Shown: positions 17,374-36,882 of the stretch, one piece after another
How positions within the stretch are numbered: the stretch's first letter is position 1
Layout of the letters: the number at the start of each line of letters is the position of its first letter
Source: Lophium mytilinum
Taxonomy: Eukaryota; Ascomycota; Dothideomycetes; Mytilinidiales; Mytilinidiaceae
Assembly: GCA_010093605.1 (NCBI GenBank)
Contig: MU004190.1
Location: 1,054,001-1,118,000, forward strand
Reading direction: 5' to 3'
DNA length: 64,000 nt
The notes under the pieces: model-generated
Databases searched by the model: none
What the model was told of the DNA's origin: nothing
The model's input: only the letters and a program-made list of their open reading frames with translations
Position numbers and translations under genes: made by a program

Positions 17374-17834
17374 CAGTACAGGAGGATATTCAACGGTACA
17401 GCAAGCTATAGAACAAGCTGTCAGAGGGGTCGCAGCTACATCGGAGTTGTGCCGAACGAGGTGGTGTTAATTAGCAAAGAAGCGAACGGGTTGTACTACA
17501 GGTTGACGTCTATCTGATGTCGCTCTGCGTAGATATCAGCACGCTAAAACCTCCAGCCTCCAAGATCTCACGACTCAATCATCCCCTGGACCACATGCAT
17601 AGGTAGACAGTTCCGAAAGGTCAAAGCAGTCCTATTGATGTATTTCACATAACATGGAGTACCCAGCCAGCAATGCTATTGTCCCGGAACTCGGCCACAC
17701 TGACTTCCATACCACTGACGACACCGCCTGACCATCACCTGATAATTCCACAGCCCCCATGAATCTCTACACATGCCTTCCGAGTCTTCCTGTTCCCTTA
17801 AACTCTTATACATGGCCGCTCTGCACTGCTCACC
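17374..17834. other. divergent promoter region
   Basis: Separates the starts of the mitochondrial protein gene (minus) and the fumarate reductase gene (plus). No specific operator was identified. Confidence 0.5.
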
Positions 17835-19352
17835 ATGAGTAGGACCCGCGCGCTTACTCTCATAGTTCTCTCCCTTCTCGGCATCTTTGCGGCATACCAC
17901 TATAACCGCTCCACCATGGCTACCACCCCCAAACTCATCCCAACCAGCGCACTCGCTAAGAACGGGGCAATAGTCGTCGGTTCAGGCCTCGCTGGCCTCT
18001 CAGCCGCCTCCCAACTAATTGCAGCGAATATCCCCGTCCGTCTGCTTGAGCGGAACGCAAAGCCAGGCGGTAACTCCATCAAAGCCTCATCCGGCATCAA
18101 TGGCGCCCCTACTCCCTTCCAGCCTGGTCCTCCAGACACAGAATTCTACGCCGACACCGTTAAATCAACGGGCCACGCCATGAGCACAGCCCGCGAGCAC
18201 CGCGAAAAGCTAATTGGCACACTCACCAACTCTTCCGCCTCAGCAGTCACGTGGCTCACAACTACCCACGGCATCGACCTCAGCAAAGTCGCTCAATTGG
18301 GTGGCCACTCCCGCGCTCGAACACACAGGGGAGCGGGCGGGACACCCCCGGGATTCGCCATCGTTTCGACTCTCCTCAAAAGCCTGAAAGCAAGCCCACT
18401 TTTTGAGCTCAAGACTTCCTGCACCGTAAACCGCCTCTTGCTTTCCGGCGCCTCCATCACAGGCGTCGAGTACACCTGCAGCTCGCCCGAAGCTGAAAGC
18501 ACCACCTCAGAGCTCCATGGACCTGTCATAGTAACCACAGGAGGTTTCGCAGGCGACGACACCGGCCTCCTAGCCACCCACCGCCCTGACCTCGCAAACT
18601 TCCCATCAACCAACGATCCCGCGCCGGGGTCTACGCATCTCCTAACCTCCGTCGGTGCGCAGCTGCTCGACATGTCCAGCGTCCAGGTCCACCCGACCGG
18701 CTTCGTGGATCCCGCGACCCCGCTCTCCCCGCTGAAGTTCCTCGCCGCAGAAGTGTTGCGTGGGGAGGGCGGGATTCTACTCCACGACGGGGAGCGCTTT
18801 TTCAACGAATTGGACACGCGTGAGAAAGTCACGGCTGCAATTTTGAAGAACGATCCGGTTGAGGAGAAGCCGAAGCAGTGGGATGTGCTATTAGTGTTAG
18901 ATGAGGGGGTTTATGAGGCTGCGAAGTCGCATATTGATTTCTACATCTTCAAGGGGCTGGTGCGGAAGACGACAATTGGGGACCTGGGGGATAAAGCATT
19001 GGCTACGATCAGCGAGTACGCGGATGTGGTTGCCGGCAAGCACGAAGACAAGCTTGGCCGGACTGCTTTCGCGGATTGGGAGCTGTTGGAGCCGAAGGCG
19101 GACTCGATAGTGTACGTAGGGAGAGTGACGCCGGTGGTGCATTTCACGATGGGCGGCGTGGTTATTAGCGAGAAGGCTGAGGTGCTAGACGCGCAAGGAG
19201 TGCCCATTGAGGGCGTCTGGGCCGCTGGAGAGGTAACTGGAGGCGTGCATGGAGGGAACAGGCTAGGTGGGTCGAGCTTGTTAGAATGTGTGGTCTTTGG
19301 GAGGAATGCAGGAGAGAGGGTGGTAGAGTATATCAAGAATGAAGGAAAGTAA
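17835..19352 (+). CDS. OSM1: Soluble fumarate reductase, OSM1/FRD1 type
   Basis: Flavoprotein that reduces fumarate to succinate and reoxidises FADH2/NADH under low oxygen; in yeast it works in mitochondria or the ER to support oxidative protein folding. Intronless, 505 residues. Residues 5-21 (RALTLIVLSLLGIFAAY) form a signal or anchor helix. The FAD motif is GAIVVGSGLAGLSAASQLI (44-62), then LLERNAKPGGNS. Active-site regions of the succinate dehydrogenase/fumarate reductase flavoprotein family are visible: VHPTGFVDP, LRGEGGILLHDGERFFNELD, HFTMGGV, and the C-terminal GGVHGGNRLGGSSLLECVVF. A second ATG at 17916 (MATTPKLIP) could give a cytosolic form without the helix. Convergent with the NRPS-like gene. 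Confidence 0.9.
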   Translation: MSRTRALTLIVLSLLGIFAAYHYNRSTMATTPKLIPTSALAKNGAIVVGSGLAGLSAASQLIAANIPVRLLERNAKPGGNSIKASSGINGAPTPFQPGPPDTEFYADTVKSTGHAMSTAREHREKLIGTLTNSSASAVTWLTTTHGIDLSKVAQLGGHSRARTHRGAGGTPPGFAIVSTLLKSLKASPLFELKTSCTVNRLLLSGASITGVEYTCSSPEAESTTSELHGPVIVTTGGFAGDDTGLLATHRPDLANFPSTNDPAPGSTHLLTSVGAQLLDMSSVQVHPTGFVDPATPLSPLKFLAAEVLRGEGGILLHDGERFFNELDTREKVTAAILKNDPVEEKPKQWDVLLVLDEGVYEAAKSHIDFYIFKGLVRKTTIGDLGDKALATISEYADVVAGKHEDKLGRTAFADWELLEPKADSIVYVGRVTPVVHFTMGGVVISEKAEVLDAQGVPIEGVWAAGEVTGGVHGGNRLGGSSLLECVVFGRNAGERVVEYIKNEGK

Positions 19353-19707: not shown

Positions 19708-22700
19708 CTAGAGCTTCCACCCCCATAACCAAGCCTCCAAAAGATCGACCGTGATTGGCTCAAAGTCAACTCTAGAGGCCGCCGCCGCTCTTTTTCTATC
19801 CGCCGGGGACCAGTGATACCCCATACCGTCCCCAAACACCCTATACGCCTCCAAGAACCCTAGCGCCCCCGTCTCCATTACATCCATATCCCCCTCTTTC
19901 CCTCTCCTCTCCAACTCTCCCACCCACTCCGACAAGCTCACCGTCCTCAAATTCATCCTAAACCTCTCCCTCAACGTCCTGACCACAATATCCCAGGGCT
20001 TAGGCCTCGGATGCACAAGGTTGAACACCCGCGGTTCCTGATCCTGTCCCCCATCTTTAGTATCTACGACCTCCCTCACCATTTCCGCGAGCTGGTCTAC
20101 CGGCGCCCAATCAGCCATGACAACGCGCTCAGGAACAATTCCCATAACCCTAGACGCCCGAATCAGCGAACGCAGCCACTCCTGCTCCGCCCACAGCCCC
20201 TTCCTCAGATCAGCCGGCCCACCCATCTGGCCAATGCGGAGAATATCAACAGGCACTGCTGACCGCTGGCACGCGATCTCGAGCATGCGTTCACAGACCC
20301 ATTTGCCTTCGGAGTAGCCCCGTCTTAGCGCTGACCCCGGGTTATCAATCGGTGACTCCATATATAGGGCGTCATCAGGTTTGACATGCATCTCGTTTCT
20401 GGCCGCGCAAGCAGAGGAGATGAAGACAATGCGGGGCCGGCGAATACTAGTGACGGACCAGTCGATGACGTGACGAAGGCCACAGATGAAGGGCGTTTCG
20501 AAAGCCTCGAGCGGGCTGGCAAAGTCCGGCTTCCAGGCGTTGTAAAGTATGACGTCGACATCATCTATTAGAATTTTGCAGAGGTTGTGGTCGAGTGAGA
20601 GGTTTGGGAGGCTGATATCGATGGGTAAGTAAGCTGCTTTGAAAGCAGCGGGGTGTGAAGCGGCAACGGGCGGAGGAGAAGCGGGATAGGTATCCATGCA
20701 GTATATTTTTGACACCCAGGGAGACTCTAGAAGGGAGAGAAGGAGATGGGATCCGAAATAGCCTTCATAGCCAATCAGAGCGATATGCTTTGGGAAGAGG
20801 AGGGGGGGCTGGGGTATTGCGGCCCTGGCGATTAGCCCTGATGTATGTTTTTTGACCATTGCTTGCATGCTGATGAAGCGGACGTCATTGTTGTCTTGAC
20901 TAGGAACGCCTTTCAGAGTGAGGAACTTGTAGACAGCAGTCGTTATTCCCTGAACTGTTGAATTTAGGTAAATCATTCGTGGTGATATCCACGAGACATC
21001 AGCGGTCGGTAAGACTATTTGTAGACCAAATCTGAGCCTTGCGACGATCTCACCAATTTGGAGATAATCAAGGCCGTGAGAGAGGAGATCCTTGCGAGAG
21101 CCTGCTTCTGTTGATGCCAGGAAGCACTGAGAAAGGATGTCATGGACGAACCGTGCAACATCTTCCATCTTGAATGTTTTTTCGGTCGAAGGCGTCAAAG
21201 GAAATCCAACATCCGGATTTGCAACCCTGTCCTGAGAGTACAAATGGTCGAGTTCCAACTCATAGAGTTGCTCCGTCAGCTTTCTGACGATAGTGCCCTT
21301 GGAAGCTCTGGCGAAGGGCTTCTCCGGGTTTGCTACTAGTATTCTGGATCGAAGTATCTTTCCTTGCACTGGGGCAAGCCGATTGGCCTCTTTTACGAGT
21401 GGCCACACAAGATCCAGGATTCGCTCCCGTGCTACGTCCACGTTCAATGCTAGCTCAACCATCAGCGCCGGCTGAGGTCTACCTTGGCCGACAACAAGGG
21501 CACCGGTTAGGAGCGAAATATTTTGAAGGGCCATCTCTATGGGAACAGCGTTGAGAGTATGGGCGCCGGAAAGAACTATGATGTCATCCTTACGGCCATA
21601 GTATCGCCAGAGGTTCGGCTTGGTCGGATGGGGACTGAACAGGTCCCTGGTGTGATACCGGGTAGTACCAGGCAGACTGTGGTATAAGCCGATGAAGTCC
21701 TTGGTTTTTTTATCCACACTAACTACAAGCTCAAATGTCTGCTCTTGATCACCTGTCTTCTCCATTTGAACATTCATGTATGGATTCCATTCCACCCAAC
21801 TCCAGTCCTCTGGTCCCGGAGCAAGGTGAGGCAGGCAAAGTATTTCAGTAGATCCATAGAAATTGATTATGTCGGTCACTTGGCGGATCCGTTCTGCTAT
21901 GCCTAACGACAATGGTCCTCCGGTAAAGACGAGATGAGCCAATCCTCGGAATACATCTAGTCCGCCTGGCTCGAGGAATAAATTTTCGATAGTCGCGGGT
22001 GGAAGATAGAGTACTCGGATGTTCTGGTGGCTTCGTATTTCTTTTATAAGGTAGACACTTGGAGGCATAAGGGGTGGGCCTAAAACTGGAAACGCCGATG
22101 AAAAAAGCGGGCCAACTTCGATAGAGTCAGCAGAATATTCATTCATCGGACTCGCAAAGGTCAGCTTACCCACTAAAGCTATGAATCCAGCAAGCTACCC
22201 CTTCGTAAGCATAAGACCTACCAGTCCACATTACAAGCTTACATGATAGTGAGGGAGTACGCTATAGAAGCGACCCCAAGTGTTCCACGACGAAAAGTCC
22301 TGGTTCTCTCTTCCCGGAGTGCTTGGGAGATTTCGCTGATTATCAAGGACTGCAAATGAGCCATGTGTCAGAAAAATAGGCTTAGGGTGACCTGTTACGT
22401 ATCAGCGTTGCCGATATCATCCATCATTTCAACTACCTGTCGATCCCGATGAATGCATTATTGCCACTTCTCTCCGACTATGCGTATCGAAACGCTCGTT
22501 ATACTGATACAGTTTGGGAGTACTGTACAGCATCTCCCTGAATGCCGGAATCTCATCGCCGATTAGAGAGGGCTGGATAGCATGTAGTTGCCGAACCAAA
22601 GGACTGACTTCTTCCGCGTAAAGAAGTTGGTAGCAGTAGGTCTGCTGAAGCAACGAGATGTTTGTTGCAGAGAGGTTTCTGATGGATAGGAACAAGACCT

Positions 22701-23044
22701 AGAGCGGTCAGTGCATACTTCAAGCGAGGTGAAAGTATGATCACCTTGTATCCACACTTCACGGCAGCTAAAAACATGATGGCGCCTCGCAAATCGGGAA
22801 TGCCTAAATAACCTAACGTCTCGTACGTAAGGCTCACCCCCTTTTTGTATGTAATCCAGTGAGCCATATAGTCAACGCAACGGGCCATATCAGCACAGGT
22901 AATGTCCATGAAGCCGTCCGAGAGGTCCGGCGAACGTGGGATGGCAGCAAAAAGTCGGCCGGGGTCGGAACGGGAGTACTCGTCGAGCGCTTGTGGTAAA
23001 GTTCGTTTCCCATAGTCAACTTCCGCCGTCGGCGCCGATGTCAT
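19708..23044 (-). CDS. NRPS-like reductase (adenylation - carrier - reductase), carrier serine replaced
   Basis: Enzymes of this class activate a carboxylic acid as adenylate, load it on a carrier and release it as an aldehyde or alcohol. Minus-strand exons are 22745..23044, 22437..22698, 22243..22391 and 19708..22194, giving 1065 residues. Adenylation motifs: IMHSSGSTGHPKPIFLTHGS, FYGSTE, YHTRDLF, YYGRKDDIIVLSG and ASKGTIVRKL. The carrier region near residue 614 reads SHGLDYLQIGE, where relatives have D-S-L; the serine that takes phosphopantetheine is tyrosine (codon 21064..21066). The reductase domain starts with IALIGYEGYFGSHLLLSLLE (NADP fold) and has the SDR pair Y-x3-K in GYSEGKWVCE. 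Intron boundaries restore the family order CGYKVLFLSIRNLS and LPHYHLAGF. The substrate is unknown. The neighbouring regulator at 23985 is divergent, and the fumarate reductase lies downstream. Confidence 0.9.
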
Positions 23045-26803: not shown

Positions 26804-29134
26804 TTATAGCTCATCGTGCCCCGCATCCTCATCGCCATCGTAATCCGGCATGCCTCCCGCGCCGCCGCCATACAGCTTCGAGGTAATTGGGTAGGCGACG
26901 CTGCTGAGCTTCTCCTTCTGCTCGTCAAAGTCCTCGGCGTTGGCCGTGGCGGCGTTTTCTTCGAGCCAGTCTTGGGTTTCCTTGACGGCTTCGAGGAGCT
27001 GTGATATCGAATTAGTGTTTCTTTCTTTAATTTGTTTCTTTCTTTGATTGGCAGGGAAGGGATCAACATACATCGTTCTTGTCCTCCTCGTCGATCTTGC
27101 CACCAAGGCCCTCCTCGTCGTTGACCTGGTTCTTGAGGCTGTAGGCGTAGTTCTCGAGGCCGTTCCTGGACTCGATGCGCTCGCGGGTTGCCTTATCTTC
27201 TTCGGCGTACTTCTCGGCTTCCTCGACCATGCGCTCAATTTCCTCGGCTGAGAGGCGGCCCTTGTCGTTCGTGATGGCGATGGAGTCACCCTTGCCTGTG
27301 CCCTTGTCGACGGCGCTGACCTTGAGGACACCGTTGGCGTCGAGCTCGAATGTCACTTCGACTTGAGGAACACCACGGGGTGCAGGACTGTGGATGTATT
27401 AGTTTGAAGAATGGGTGGTAGAATATGCAAAGGCGACTTACGGAATGCCTGTGAGCTCAAATTTGCCCAACATGTTGTTGTCCTTGGTCATAGAACGCTC
27501 GCCCTCGTAGACTTGGATCAAGACCACGGGTTGGTTGTCCGCAGCGGTGGAGAAGATCTGGCTCTTCTTGGTCGGGATGGTAGTGCCGCGCTTGATCAGG
27601 TGGGTCATGACACCGCCGGTAGTCTCGATACCAAGAGTGAGCGGGTTGACATCCATGAGAACGACCTGCTTTGTGGGTATTAGCATAACTCAAAATCAAT
27701 AATGAGCAGAGTAGACACGTACATTAGCCTTGGTATCACCGGACAAGACACCACCCTGGACGGCCGCACCATAGGCAACGGCTTCATCGGGGTTGACATC
27801 CTTGCGCGCTTTCTTGCCGAAGAACTCTTCGAGCATAGCCTGGACTTTGGGGATACGGGTAGAACCACCGACAAGAACAATGTCGTCAATGTCGCTCTTC
27901 TTCATCTTCGCGTCCTTGAGAACCTGTTCGACAGGCTTAAGGGTCTTCTTGAAAAGATCGTTGTTAAGCTCTTCGAACTTAGCGCGGGTAAGGGTCTCAG
28001 AAAAGTCCTCGCCGGCGTGGAAGGACTCGATTTCGATCTTAGCGGTCTTCTGGGAAGAGAGAGTTCGCTTCGCCTTCTCGACCTCACGCTTCAGCTTGCC
28101 CATAGTCTTGGCGTCCTTGGTGATATCGACGCTCTTCTCCTTGTTGTACTTCTTGGCGAAGTACGTGATAACACGCTGATCGAAATCTTCACCACCGAGA
28201 TGGGTGTCACCAGCGGTAGCCTGGACCTCGAAGACACCGTTGTCGATGGTAAGGATGGAAACATCGAAAGTTCCTCCTCCAAGATCGTAGACGATGACTT
28301 GGCGCTCGTCCTTGTCAGTCTTGTCCAGACCATAGGCGAGAGCGGCGGCGGTAGGTTCGTTGACGACACGGAGGACGTTCAGGCCGGCAATTGTGCCAGC
28401 GTCCTTGGTAGCCGCTCGCTGAGCGTCGTTGAAGTAGGCCGGGACAGTGACAACGGCGTTAGTGACGGTCTCGCCGAGATAGTTCTCAGCAACCTCCTTC
28501 ATCTTGCCTAGAACCATAGCGCTGATCTCCTCGGGGGTGAATGTGGTCTCCTTGCCGTGGACATCGACCTTGACGCGGGGTTGACCGCCCTTGTTGACAA
28601 CGGAGAAGGGGAAGTGCTTCATATCGGCCTGGACATCCTTCTCGGAGAACTTGCGCCCGATCAATCGTTTCTGCAGAGCTGTTAGTATTGTCATTGCGAG
28701 AGAGCTTTAGAGGGGAACTCACAATATCAAAGATAGTCCGGTGGGGGTTGCTAGCGTATTGATTCTTTGCGGCGTCACCGACCAGACGTTCTTCATCTGT
28801 GAAAGCGACCCAAGACGGTGTTATCCGGTTACCTGGCCTCATTGTTAGTCTGGGTTCTTGAAATGTGTCCTTTCAAAGTAGAGTAGAGCATACCCTGATC
28901 GTTGACCATAATTTCCACCTTTCCGTTCTTCATCACACCCACACATGAGTAAGTGGTTCCCAAATCGATACCAATGACAGGTCCCTGGACCGCGTTGTTC
29001 TCTTTGATCGGTTCCTGATCATCTGCCCGTGCCGTCGAGGCGAGCATCAAGCCCGCAACGAGAACGATAACAAGGTAGAAGGCAACCGACCACGCCGAAC
29101 GCGACGAGTTGCCGCTTCTTGACCGCCTCGCCAT
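26804..29134 (-). CDS. KAR2: ER Hsp70 chaperone BiP/Kar2
   Basis: Lumenal Hsp70 that drives post-translational import through Sec61 and folds ER proteins. Minus-strand exons: 28894..29134, 28723..28832, 27723..28670, 27442..27665, 27072..27387 and 26804..26998; 677 residues. The signal segment is [20 protein letters not shown] (residues 16-35), followed by the ATPase opening [20 protein letters not shown]. Further Hsp70 signatures are [14 protein letters not shown] and [20 protein letters not shown]. The substrate domain begins [20 protein letters not shown]. The protein ends GHDEL, giving the HDEL retrieval signal. MARRSRSG at 29134 is the preferred start because a hydrophobic signal follows; an in-frame ATG at 29200 would add a 22-residue extension. 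All introns are GT-AG, 52-73 bp. Confidence 0.97.
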
Positions 29135-32898: not shown

Positions 32899-35800
32899 CT
32901 AATACACCTCCAACACGTATCGCTGCGCCTCCTTCAGCGTCTCAATCTCACGCCTACTATCCACCTTCTTGCCGCCCTTCCCGTGCTGAGACGCATGCTG
33001 CACCTCGATCGCCTCCTGCAGCACCTCTGTGACATCAGGCACCGGCCACGTCGGACCGCAAAGGTAGAAGCTACCCTCGTTCTTGAGATAGGCAGTGCGG
33101 ATATCGCCGAGAGTTTGTCGCATACGGTCCTGGATGTAGATCTTCTGCGGCTGGTCTCTGCTGAAGGCACGTCCCAGGAGAGTGATGATGCCGGCGTCTT
33201 GATACGCCTCCCATTCCTCACCGTAGAGGTACTCCTCGCGCTGGTGACGAGAGCCCATGTACAGTAGGAGCTCGCCGATTTCGTGGCCTTGCTGCTTCTG
33301 GTAGGCGCGTTCCTGGACGAAGGCACGGAAGGGCGCCAGACCCGTACCGAGACCGGCCATGATGATTGGTGCGGTAGTCTTGGGAGGTAGTTTCATGACG
33401 GAAGGCTTGACGGAAACGGTGACGGGCGAACCCACGGCCAGACCATTGAGGTAGCGAGTAGCCTGGCCAAAGCGATCACGGCCCTTGGGGTCGACCCAGT
33501 TGACAGTGACAATGAGAAGCGAGACCGAGGTCGGAGTGACATTTTGAGACGAAGCGATAGAGTATTCACGTCGTTTCATAGGAGTGACAATGCGCACAAT
33601 ATCGTGGAAGGCCGGGTGTGCTGATGTGAATTCGAGCAGGATGTCAGCGTAGGTGACAGTGTCGACCTCCGCGCGGCGCTTGAATTCGCCAGCACCTTCA
33701 GGGCCACCGAGAGTAAGAAGGGTTTTTCGCTCGGTTTCATCATCCGCAAATTCCGATAGCGCTTCGTAGAAGCGCTTTGGGGGCTTGCCGAAAATATCGA
33801 TGTTCTGGATGAGCGATTGATACACAGTGCGATTCTCCAGGACATTCGGGTCTTCGCGGGAGGGAACCTCGACAATCTCATCCGCGTTGAGGCCGTACCA
33901 CTTGATGAACTCCTCAACCTCGGCCTTGTCGTTTTCAGCGTGAATGCCGAGGGCTTCGCCGATCGCGTATTTGAGTCCAGATGTGCCAAGGTCGAATTCA
34001 ATGTGGAAGATGTTTCGATCATATGACTCTGGGGTGAGGCGGCGGTGCTCCTTCACAGTTGCAACAGCAGTCTTGATTCCCAGGTCTGGTCGGAGAGCCG
34101 GGGTGGTGCCGAATGCTTCTTTGAAAGCGAGGCCCTTGGCAACAATTTGCCACGATTTGAGGAGGCTGGGTGGCTCAGGCTCGATGCGGTCGAAAGAAGC
34201 GAAACTGTTGACATTGATATCTGCGGGTATATCAAGGCTTTCGACCTCTGACTCAATGGTGGCCCAGGTCTCTGGCACCTCGATCTCCCGAAGGCATGTC
34301 TGGAGATCACCAACAAGAGCGTTGATGATTTCAAAACCGCCATTCAAAGTGGCCAATTTCTCTACATCCGCGGAGAAAGTGTTCTCCCGGGCCACCTTCA
34401 AGAAAGCTAGCTGGGCGAGATAATTCTCAAGACTTGGATCCGCAGACACAGACTCTGATAGCGTGGGATCGAATACGAAAAGCTCGACGTCTCTCGAGAA
34501 AAGACCTTTTCGTAGCGTGGGGGAGAGCCTCTTCTCAACATCCTCATCTTTGAGTCCAGCGAGTTTGACAATGATAGAGCTATCCGTTTTGACACTAGCC
34601 AAGACATCAAATTCTTTCAACAAGGTCTCATCGCCTACGAAGCTTACGTCAGCCTGTTCAACTGAGTATGAAGCTTCGATCGCATAGCTCGAGTTCCGCA
34701 GGTCTGTCCGAACAGTGCCGCCGCGGACTAGGTTGTCGTGACCCGTGCGAATCAAAACGTTCGTAGACGAGTCCAACGAGAAGAGTTTCCCCACTACAAC
34801 CGGCGCGTTGACCGCAGGAGATTCGTCCAAGTGCCAGAAGCTATACTGACGCACGGTTGAGCTGTCAACGATGTCAACATATGAGGGAAGCTGGTCAGCC
34901 TCTTCCACGGGGAGATAAGTGGCCCGGAAAGCATCCAGAATGCCGCTCGGGGTCCACACCTCCTCCCTGGAGTACTTGATTTCGCTGACTCGAGTCGTTG
35001 CGTCTAGATCAGAGAACTGCACAGCGGCCAGAACATCAGAGTATAGTCGGGAGTGTTGTGCTCTGTCCAAAGTACTGGACGCATCCTCGACCTGGCCAAG
35101 AACAGAGATGTACTTTGTGGATTTGGGGAGAGCTGCCAAGAAGGCCTCCTCAACAAAAGGCCGGTACACACGGACGTTGATAGCGCCAACCTTGCAACCC
35201 TGCCTGACCAGAGCTGCAGCTACTTGAGCAGCTAGCGAGGCTTCGACAGTGCCGAACACTACCAATACTGTATCCGGAGTCTCATGGCCGTAGTATTCGA
35301 AGAGCTCGTAATCGGTACCAAACTCGTCGTTGAACGCCTTGAGTAGACGTACTGCTTGGCCTTCGTGATCGGAGTGTTTCTTCTCCGGGCCAGATGTAGC
35401 CTCGACAATGGCTTTATAATTGTTGTAAAGGCCGACTTGGTCCAAAACATCGACGACTCTTGTAGTCTCCCTTCCAACACTGATCCCATCGTAGGTGTGG
35501 ATTGTTGGAATGATAGTCGACAGCAAAGTGGCGAACAGAGCCATATGCTGGATTTCAAAGGCCGAAGTGCTCGCGACAAGACCCAATCCTAGATCATCCG
35601 CCAGGGCCAACGAAGAGACATAGTCGGTGATGAGCCCAGTAGCAGAGCTACCAGAATAATCCGCAGCCGAGATATGTGCAACCAATGGGTTTGCGACTGA
35701 GTATAGCAGCGATAGCTGATCGAGGGCAGGTCGGAGGTGGTTCAGCGTGAAGGGAGAGGCAATCACAGCCTGAGGAATGTGGCGCTTCTTCAAGTCGAAG

Positions 35801-36150
35801 TCATTGGAGAACATGTATCCCAGAGCAATTGAGCCGGCGCCGGTGCGAGTCTCCATGTATGACACGCCCGTTGCATAGCCGAATGCATTCTTCTCCTTCT
35901 GCGCCTGCCAGTGTTTCACAGCGATGTCCAGGTCAAAAGTCTCTGGAGAGTACGAGAAGATCTTGTCGGAGAGGATATAGGCGACTTGTTGCACGAGGGT
36001 CTGAGCAGTCACGTAGGTGGGGCCACTGATTGAGGACAACGAGATGTCCTGGCCAAAAGGGAGCCCTGAAGACTTCTGGGTGAAAGCCTTCGCCTTGGTG
36101 TCCTCGGGGATGGCTCCAGGGCCCGCGGATTCTGATTGTTGGAGATGCAT
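32899..36150 (-). CDS. MET10: Sulfite reductase [NADPH] flavoprotein (alpha) subunit
   Basis: FAD/NADPH subunit that passes electrons to the sirohaem subunit for reduction of sulfite to sulfide in cysteine and methionine synthesis. Single exon, 1083 residues from the ATG at 36150 (MHLQQSESAG); the frame is open to another ATG at 36234. The N-terminal half is the pyruvate-ferredoxin-oxidoreductase-like region of fungal Met10 (SGPTYVTAQTLVQQVAYILS; FGYATGVSYMETRTGAGSIA). The C-terminal reductase has the FAD motif RREYSIASS (about residue 860), the NADPH/FAD loop MAGLGTGLAPFRAFVQER (about 930), MGSRHQREEYLYGEEW and CGPTWPVPDVTEVL (about 1030), ending VLEVY. There is no flavodoxin-like FMN domain between the halves, as expected for Met10. 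The start choice is uncertain by 28 codons. Confidence 0.93.
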   Translation of the reverse strand: MHLQQSESAGPGAIPEDTKAKAFTQKSSGLPFGQDISLSSISGPTYVTAQTLVQQVAYILSDKIFSYSPETFDLDIAVKHWQAQKEKNAFGYATGVSYMETRTGAGSIALGYMFSNDFDLKKRHIPQAVIASPFTLNHLRPALDQLSLLYSVANPLVAHISAADYSGSSATGLITDYVSSLALADDLGLGLVASTSAFEIQHMALFATLLSTIIPTIHTYDGISVGRETTRVVDVLDQVGLYNNYKAIVEATSGPEKKHSDHEGQAVRLLKAFNDEFGTDYELFEYYGHETPDTVLVVFGTVEASLAAQVAAALVRQGCKVGAINVRVYRPFVEEAFLAALPKSTKYISVLGQVEDASSTLDRAQHSRLYSDVLAAVQFSDLDATTRVSEIKYSREEVWTPSGILDAFRATYLPVEEADQLPSYVDIVDSSTVRQYSFWHLDESPAVNAPVVVGKLFSLDSSTNVLIRTGHDNLVRGGTVRTDLRNSSYAIEASYSVEQADVSFVGDETLLKEFDVLASVKTDSSIIVKLAGLKDEDVEKRLSPTLRKGLFSRDVELFVFDPTLSESVSADPSLENYLAQLAFLKVARENTFSADVEKLATLNGGFEIINALVGDLQTCLREIEVPETWATIESEVESLDIPADINVNSFASFDRIEPEPPSLLKSWQIVAKGLAFKEAFGTTPALRPDLGIKTAVATVKEHRRLTPESYDRNIFHIEFDLGTSGLKYAIGEALGIHAENDKAEVEEFIKWYGLNADEIVEVPSREDPNVLENRTVYQSLIQNIDIFGKPPKRFYEALSEFADDETERKTLLTLGGPEGAGEFKRRAEVDTVTYADILLEFTSAHPAFHDIVRIVTPMKRREYSIASSQNVTPTSVSLLIVTVNWVDPKGRDRFGQATRYLNGLAVGSPVTVSVKPSVMKLPPKTTAPIIMAGLGTGLAPFRAFVQERAYQKQQGHEIGELLLYMGSRHQREEYLYGEEWEAYQDAGIITLLGRAFSRDQPQKIYIQDRMRQTLGDIRTAYLKNEGSFYLCGPTWPVPDVTEVLQEAIEVQHASQHGKGGKKVDSRREIETLKEAQRYVLEVY

Positions 36151-36882
36151 GATAAATGGCGGGGACGCGCTCTTCAATAAGAAGTAGAGACGCGTAAAGT
36201 GTTCTGCTCCGGAAGACCACGGCGAGAGAGTCAATGACGACTCTTCTGTGGGAGGGTCTGGAGGGAGAGAGGTGGTGTTGAGGGCTGAGAGGGAAATTCT
36301 GGAGGCGAAGGGCGAGGTCGGCGCAGAAGGCGGGACCGTGAAGCCGAGGAGAAGTTAGGCCGGTCCATTTGGGCGACTTGGGGCATTTGCGCGGCGGCAA
36401 TTGGCTGTCCCATGGTTCTTTCACTAAATTTCAAAGCGCGCTACGAAAATACAGTCTCCCCCCCTGTACGGACTGGACACGACCGTGCGTAGAACAGGGG
36501 ATTTTACATACAAAAACCCTTGTTTTGCGCACGGTCGTGTCCAGTCCGTACAGGGGGGGAGACTGTATGTCGTCTTGGTCGAGCACGCCATCGATCTGCT
36601 GCAGGGACCACAGCCACTGCAAACGGTGCAAACGTCGGCCCCGCGGGATCATTCAGCCGAGGTCATGTGACCTTGAGCTGCGGCGATCTGTTCGGAGGTG
36701 AGCTCGTCCCAATAAGCTCCCCCCTCTCAGTACAACACCGTGTTCACAGCAAGCGCTTTAGGCCGTGACTCGAAAGCCCTACATTTGGGCTCTTCGTATG
36801 CCAGGCTTCCTTGTTAAATCTTTATTTACCTGAAGCTCTCCCCTTTTATACTTCAATACAGACTCGATCAAATACCGCCATC
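36151..36882. promoter_or_regulatory. divergent promoter region of MET10 and SEC61
   Basis: Separates two divergent housekeeping genes and contains the foldback hairpin at 36449-36568. Short open frames here are by-products of the inverted repeat. A TTTTATA stretch at about 36843 lies 40 bp upstream of the SEC61 ATG. Confidence 0.55.
36449..36568. repeat. 52-bp near-perfect inverted repeat (foldback hairpin)
   Basis: Left arm 36449..36500, right arm 36517..36568, spacer of 16 AT-rich bases. The arms are the reverse complement of each other at 49 of 52 positions. The outer part, including ACAGTCTCC, seven C and CTGTACGGACTGG, matches without error; the three differences lie near the loop. No flanking duplication is obvious. 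It could be a small foldback element or the template of a hairpin RNA. Confidence 0.93.

Follow-up and report, generated by a model that had tools for sequence, protein, structure and literature searches.

The window analysed here is a stretch of 64,000 nucleotides of the Lophium mytilinum genome (G000:C10:1054001-1118000; genome of 43.2 Mb in 24 contigs). Its minus strand carries a gene with adenylation (A), carrier (T) and reductase (R) domains, an A-T-R gene. The continuous open frame comprises 828 codons (22194..19711, minus strand), and upstream of it the A domain is distributed over two frames with stops between them. When four GT-AG introns of 46, 45, 48 and 54 nt, whose boundaries were placed by inspection of the reading frames, were spliced out, we obtained a model of 1047 codons in five exons with no internal stop. 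A preliminary description of this DNA gave 1065 residues without a stop; the gene is indeed stop-free, but the length has to be replaced by the 828 codons of the frame and the 1047 of the spliced model.

In the genome, we found the AMP-binding_C_3 family at five loci, namely the window gene and those on contigs C2, C13, C15 and C17, by which the paralogues are designated below. Exon 1 (22745..23044; all exons and introns are on the minus strand) begins with ATG at 23044..23042 and encodes the N-terminal part of the A domain, as judged from the frame and from homology to C2, C13, C15 and C17. Intron 1 (22699..22744; 46 nt; donor GTGATC, branch-like ACTGAC, acceptor TAG) follows 'GYK', where all four paralogues also have an intron. 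Exon 2 (22437..22698) ends with the ATP-loop motif HSSGSTG, and intron 2 (22392..22436; 45 nt; donor GTAGTT, branch-like GCTGAT, acceptor CAG) lies inside the ATP loop at a position common to C15 and C2. Exon 3 (22243..22391) extends from HPKP of the ATP loop to PHYH, which holds the equivalent of His237 in NcCAR of N. crassa, and intron 3 (22195..22242; 48 nt; donor GTAAGC, branch-like GCTTAC, acceptor TAG) follows 'YH' as it does in C15, C17 and C2. Exon 4 has 25 nt (22170..22194). Intron 4 (22116..22169; 54 nt; donor GTAAGC, branch-like GCTGAC, acceptor AAG) had no counterpart among the paralogues. Exon 5 (19711..22115) encodes the rest of the A domain, the carrier region and the reductase domain, and is followed by the stop TAG at 19710..19708.

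Thus, three of the four introns occupy positions shared with paralogues, all four are of the GT-AG type, and in each a branch-like sequence precedes the acceptor by 10-12 nt. The donors of introns 1 and 2 lack G at +5 (2/4), compared with 1/9 paralogue introns (C15 intron 2). We discarded the possibility that the N-terminal third (22195..22553) has a broken frame, because the four GT-AG introns, three of them at paralogue positions, restore one frame. A 40-nt alternative for intron 1 was also dropped on inspection; it would leave about 5 nt between donor and branch site, and it would not sit at the paralogue position.

Of the genes around it that could be named, the nearest are one resembling flavocytochrome c / fumarate reductase (17802..19352, plus strand) and one for hsp70 (27696..28706, minus strand). 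Antisense to the hsp70 gene there is an open frame of 275 amino acids (27684-28508, plus strand), which is probably a by-product of hsp70 codon usage. Further away, a frame of 1151 amino acids (32902-36354, minus strand) has POR-like and FAD/NAD-binding reductase domains and perhaps encodes a sulfite reductase flavoprotein subunit.

Carrier region and Tyr596

The carrier region (20920..21168, minus strand) contains the motif SHGLDYLQIGE, in which the phosphopantetheine-serine position is occupied by Tyr596 (codon TAT, 21064..21066), exactly as it had been described. The codon is one base from a Ser codon, again in agreement with that description. In the alignment, Tyr596 falls opposite the Ser of the C15 motif GMDSLQ, and this column is Ser in 29/29 PF00550 carriers elsewhere in the genome, a set collected as PF00550 HMM matches at E<=1e-3, which in itself favours Ser.

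The carrier region of the window protein had no PF00550 or other Pfam match at E<=1 and is absent from the set of 29. Scored with an HMM of these carriers, it reached 9.1 bits, compared with 23.3 to 65.4 bits for the 29 carriers when each was left out, and thus ranked last of 30; masking the Tyr raised the score to 10.1 bits. A 100-residue T region scored 8.7, whereas the best of 200 of its own shuffles scored 3.2. Because it lies above its own shuffles and below the 29 carriers, the region looks like a strongly diverged carrier homologue.

The T-R part was modelled with AlphaFold from 4 sequences, with a poor result (mean pLDDT 52.1). This model placed helices at segment residues 6-20, 40-57, 68-73 and 77-89, so that the second long helix opened with the Tyr (segment residue 40), in a stretch that is helical and carrier-like. 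The pLDDT was 61-77 in 7 of the first 9 ten-residue blocks, 46 in the block of the Tyr and below 50 in its segment. The predicted helix start at the Tyr would agree, weakly, with the expected place of the phosphopantetheine serine.

Residues of the adenylation and reductase domains

We compared 29 positions, a list of our own choice, by motif matching; 21 were kept and eight were lost. Thus, the earlier statement that all other catalytic motifs are kept did not hold, as the losses include the hinge Glu, the Thr of TGxxGxxG and the presumed NADPH-binding Arg. Another of the eight is Asn885, which is likewise absent in C15. The functional weight of several of these positions is known from characterized enzymes. 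In NcCAR, substitution of Ala for His237, Glu433, Ser595, Tyr844 or Lys848 abolishes activity, the first two Gly of the Rossmann motif are important and R718 is the probable NADPH-binding basic residue (PMC5826065). Further, the activity of AtCAR T690A is drastically reduced (cited in PMC5826065). The window protein has the domain order of NcCAR and AtCAR with nearly the same motif spacing, and shares their adenylation and YxxxK motifs (PMC5826065, PMC9605436), but unlike them it lacks the phosphopantetheine Ser, the Glu of GEK, the Thr of TGxxGxxG and the NADPH Arg. When matched by motif, the numbering of NcCAR and the window protein differs by no more than two residues at each of the five essential sites (His237 to 237, Ser595 to 596, Tyr844 to 846 and Lys848 to 850, besides the Glu discussed below). 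Three of these five residues are kept (the His of PxxH, Tyr and Lys); the other two, the carrier Ser and the hinge Glu, are missing.

The residues for adenylation are retained: the SSGSTG-x-PK loop, the His of PxxH, GSTE, the Asp and Arg of Dx14-17R and the Lys of SKGT. The A domain thus has the CAR features (ATP loop, PxxH, GSTE, Dx14-17R) and scored 97.9 bits with PF23562, and the spliced A domain as query gave 0 PDB matches at 1e-5. The GEK hinge motif reads AHT, in the context VLSGAHTLN; His431 (codon CAT, 21559..21561, minus strand) stands where fungal CARs have an essential Glu (Glu433 of NcCAR). The residue matching the hinge Glu varies among NRPS A domains, and thiolation may therefore survive its loss. 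The corresponding position lacks Glu in C13 (GAN) and C17 (GGK) and is ambiguous in C2; since C2 reads TGEVK, which can be aligned either way, a clean link between absence of the carrier Ser and absence of the GEK Glu was weakened and is not proposed.

These results bear on whether a carrier protein acts in trans, loaded by the A domain and unloaded by the R domain. The genome has at least 29 carrier domains that might serve, and transfer of substrates in trans is possible for bacterial A domains that stand alone (PMC2823734). However, none of the 29 is on contig C10 and the protein retains a carrier-like region of its own. The explanation is further weakened because the hinge Glu is lost, variable though this position is, and we regard it as very unlikely. 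Pfam scans of 20 window ORFs revealed no PKS or NRPS domain; with no carrier on C10 either, no assembly-line cluster was seen.

The reductase domain is an extended SDR (19711..20790, minus strand; Pfam NAD_binding_4, 1e-18). The nearest solved chain by sequence is 8aep_A, deposited as 'Acetyl-CoA synthetase-like protein', which matched query residues 442-827 (E 1.2e-39). The nucleotide-binding loop reads IGYEGYFG (20752..20775, minus strand); its three Gly are kept and the Thr of TGxxGxxG is replaced by Ile693, whereas 8aep_A keeps TGTTG. CLNR, which is present in C15 and 8AEP, reads CMDT in the window protein, so that Asp720-Thr721 (20689..20694, minus strand) stand in place of Asn-Arg, the Arg being the presumed NADPH contact. 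Thus, the NADPH-site feature of CARs (TGxxGxxG and an Arg after beta-2) is absent. An Asp at the end of beta-2, as found here, is typical of NAD(H)-type SDRs, and the SDR domain is now probably NADH-type. The catalytic pair Tyr846-x3-Lys850 (20302..20316, minus strand) is kept and, with Ser813, completes the Ser-Tyr-Lys triad. The domain scored 63.7 bits with NAD_binding_4, compared with 112.5 for C15, and 102.7 with the NCBIfam thioester-reductase model, under the cut-off of 213.35.

In sum, the pattern of losses is one in which adenylation is kept, the thioester step is lost, the NADPH site is altered and the hydride-transfer triad is kept. The suggestion that covalent-carrier chemistry has been lost was therefore borne out more widely than it had been put forward, since the hinge Glu and residues of the NADPH site are gone as well. 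A base-call error at the TAT codon would need to affect a single base, as the Tyr and Ser codons differ here by one base, but it would not explain the loss of Glu, Thr and Arg, nor a carrier score that is weak even with the Tyr masked; we consider it highly improbable. Judged from the sequence, the Ser-to-Tyr substitution is real and not isolated. The same pattern of kept adenylation residues and Ser-Tyr-Lys, with both thiolation residues lost, is what would be seen in an active enzyme that bypasses the thioester and directly reduces the diffusible acyl-adenylate it has made. However, the NADPH site is altered too, and we know of no SDR that reduces acyl-AMP. A literature search for such a reaction gave a single match, a paper on an immobilised bacterial CAR. 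We consider direct reduction by such an enzyme quite unlikely.

Relatives in the genome and constraint on the gene

The C15 paralogue (G000:C15:1565333-1567579) is a full A-T-R gene whose product is 31% identical to the window protein and which shares intron positions 1-3 with the window gene. In contrast to the window protein, it keeps NGEK, GMDSLQ and CLNR; unlike in the window gene, the A domain is interrupted by an in-frame TAA and, in our model, intron 1 has a non-AG acceptor at the boundary that preserves the frame. It looks like a decaying gene. Apart from the window gene, this broken copy with intact key motifs is the sole full-length A-T-R of this type that we found, so that the A-T-R family may be dying in this genome. 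Identity between the two proteins was 25/74 (33.8%) in the T region, 33.6% in the A half and 30.2% in R. The T region is therefore not clearly more relaxed than its neighbours, and erosion of the T domain alone was not kept as an explanation, despite the last place of this region in the HMM ranking.

The window protein is co-linear with C2 at its N end and with C15 and 8AEP at its C end. C2, C13 and C17 resemble the window gene in the AMP-binding_C_3 A domain, and C13 and C17 also in the lack of Glu; they differ from it in that neither an R domain (NAD_binding_4) nor a PF00550 carrier was found in them, and nothing in their fetched flanks resembled the T or R domain of the window protein. A motif scan of these A-only loci gave three chance-like matches (two in C17, one in C13), none of them among the PF00550 matches. 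On this comparison, carrier-less members do occur in the AMP-binding_C_3 family. The A-only copy on C13 and a carrier domain at C13:447574 are some 9.5 kb apart. Elsewhere in the genome, a frame of 1171 amino acids on C6 (G000:C6:73000-80000) combines a carrier, a thioester reductase and a second SDR, like the ATRR type. Together with the short introns and the many carriers of NRPS/PKS type, this frame points to a filamentous fungus. Pattern searches gave no match to the window protein in a viral contig collection and 59 matches, 0 of them confirmed, in a prokaryotic one. No orthologue was thus found in these collections, neither of which is informative on rarity.

To assess constraint, A-domain columns invariant in the four relatives were counted with each gene left out in turn. 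Retention was 55/77 for the window gene, 55/73 for C2, 55/70 for C17, 55/65 for C13 and 55/63 for C15; the window gene thus has the lowest value of the five, though near that of C2. Of 9423 possible single-base changes in the 1047-codon model, 383 create a stop, and the chance of no stop at neutral divergence d is exp(-127.7 d), that is, 0.078 at d = 0.02 and 0.0017 at d = 0.05. Under neutral decay, the joint chance of no stop and at least six changes in the 29 listed codons was at most 3.4e-4 for the four core losses. It was at most 3.9e-5 for the four core losses on a hand-set panel of 18 codons and at most 1.2e-7 for all eight losses. The model is a simple one, which treats substitutions only, leaves indels outside and uses a position list that we chose. 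These values argue against a single inactivating hit with neutral drift for the rest, which fits the data poorly. Nor is the proposal that function was only just lost, through a single new Ser-to-Tyr substitution with the rest of the enzyme intact, supported, since other essential positions have changed too. The joint chances may be compatible with an older, still-selected non-canonical protein or with recent death after a change of function.

The gene might be near death, with constraint long relaxed and the enzyme catalytically dead, before any stop or frameshift has arisen. The eight losses among 29 positions, the weak donors of introns 1 and 2, the broken full-length paralogue C15, a carrier score under those of all 29 carriers and the lowest A-domain retention would all be expected of such a gene. 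However, neither the stop nor the frameshift that marks a pseudogene is present, with 0 stops in 1047 codons despite the 383 changes that would make one and the low no-stop chances at both divergences. Further, the Glu and Arg losses each took at least two substitutions. We regard near death as a real possibility, though a somewhat doubtful one.

A possible carrier-independent derivative

We tentatively favour, as a reading that may be right, that the gene derives from fungal A-T-R CARs and has given up the covalent-carrier step while the protein is still under constraint. The window protein would best be read as a carrier-independent derivative that diverged long ago and is not a canonical carboxylate reductase any more. 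This reading is based on the 1047 stop-free codons, the shared introns, the branch-like sites and the co-linear N and C ends; on losses lying in the thiolation and NADPH sites with the adenylation and SDR catalytic residues kept; and on the neutral-decay joint chance, the retention of 55/77 A-domain columns and the carrier-less relatives. The lowest A retention, the donors of introns 1 and 2 without G at +5 and the broken C15 speak against it, as do a T similarity to C15 no lower than that of A or R, the low R scores (63.7 and 102.7) and the variability of the hinge-Glu position among NRPS A domains. Since several defining features of CARs failed, we do not file the protein as a working CAR, and on these residues it is not expected to function as a canonical one.

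The fungal CARs have been grouped as 84 proteins in seven clades (PMC9605436). The consulted portion of that paper mentions no member without the Ser, and the consulted portion of PMC10373296 holds nothing bearing on Ser-less fungal CAR members. Among the matches listed in searches for Ser-less carriers, A-T-R proteins, adenylate reduction and cofactor preference, titles and abstract openings contained no description of a fungal A-T-R with a Ser-to-Tyr change. Fungal proteins of the NPS12 type combine an A domain with a ferric-reductase-like domain, and single A domains also exist (PMC2823734).

In the carrier-independent reading, the ancestor would be a fungal A-T-R carboxylate reductase, in which the thioester step was disabled by the loss of both the hinge Glu of GEK and the phosphopantetheine Ser. 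The A domain would still form an acyl-adenylate, which would leave the enzyme or be consumed with no thioester step; the SDR domain, probably NADH-type, would act on a free or non-covalently bound substrate or serve as a scaffold. Without the pantetheine arm the usual acyl route would be closed. In the simplest cases, acyl-AMP would be released to a free nucleophile, or the SDR domain would carry out an independent reaction of the NADH type; the boldest case would be direct reduction of acyl-AMP. A CAR fold wholly free of the covalent arm, in which the A domain makes acyl-AMP, the NADH-type SDR in the same chain reduces acyl-AMP or another non-covalent substrate and the dead carrier is a structural linker, is in our view unlikely.

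Carboxylate reductases are biocatalysts in use and are taken to need the phosphopantetheine arm. A natural member that keeps the adenylation and hydride-transfer residues and has lost both thiolation residues would provide a test of whether enzymes of this kind can do without the arm. If instead the gene is dying, it illustrates that genome mining by the A-T-R domain outline will assign inactive enzymes to the CARs.
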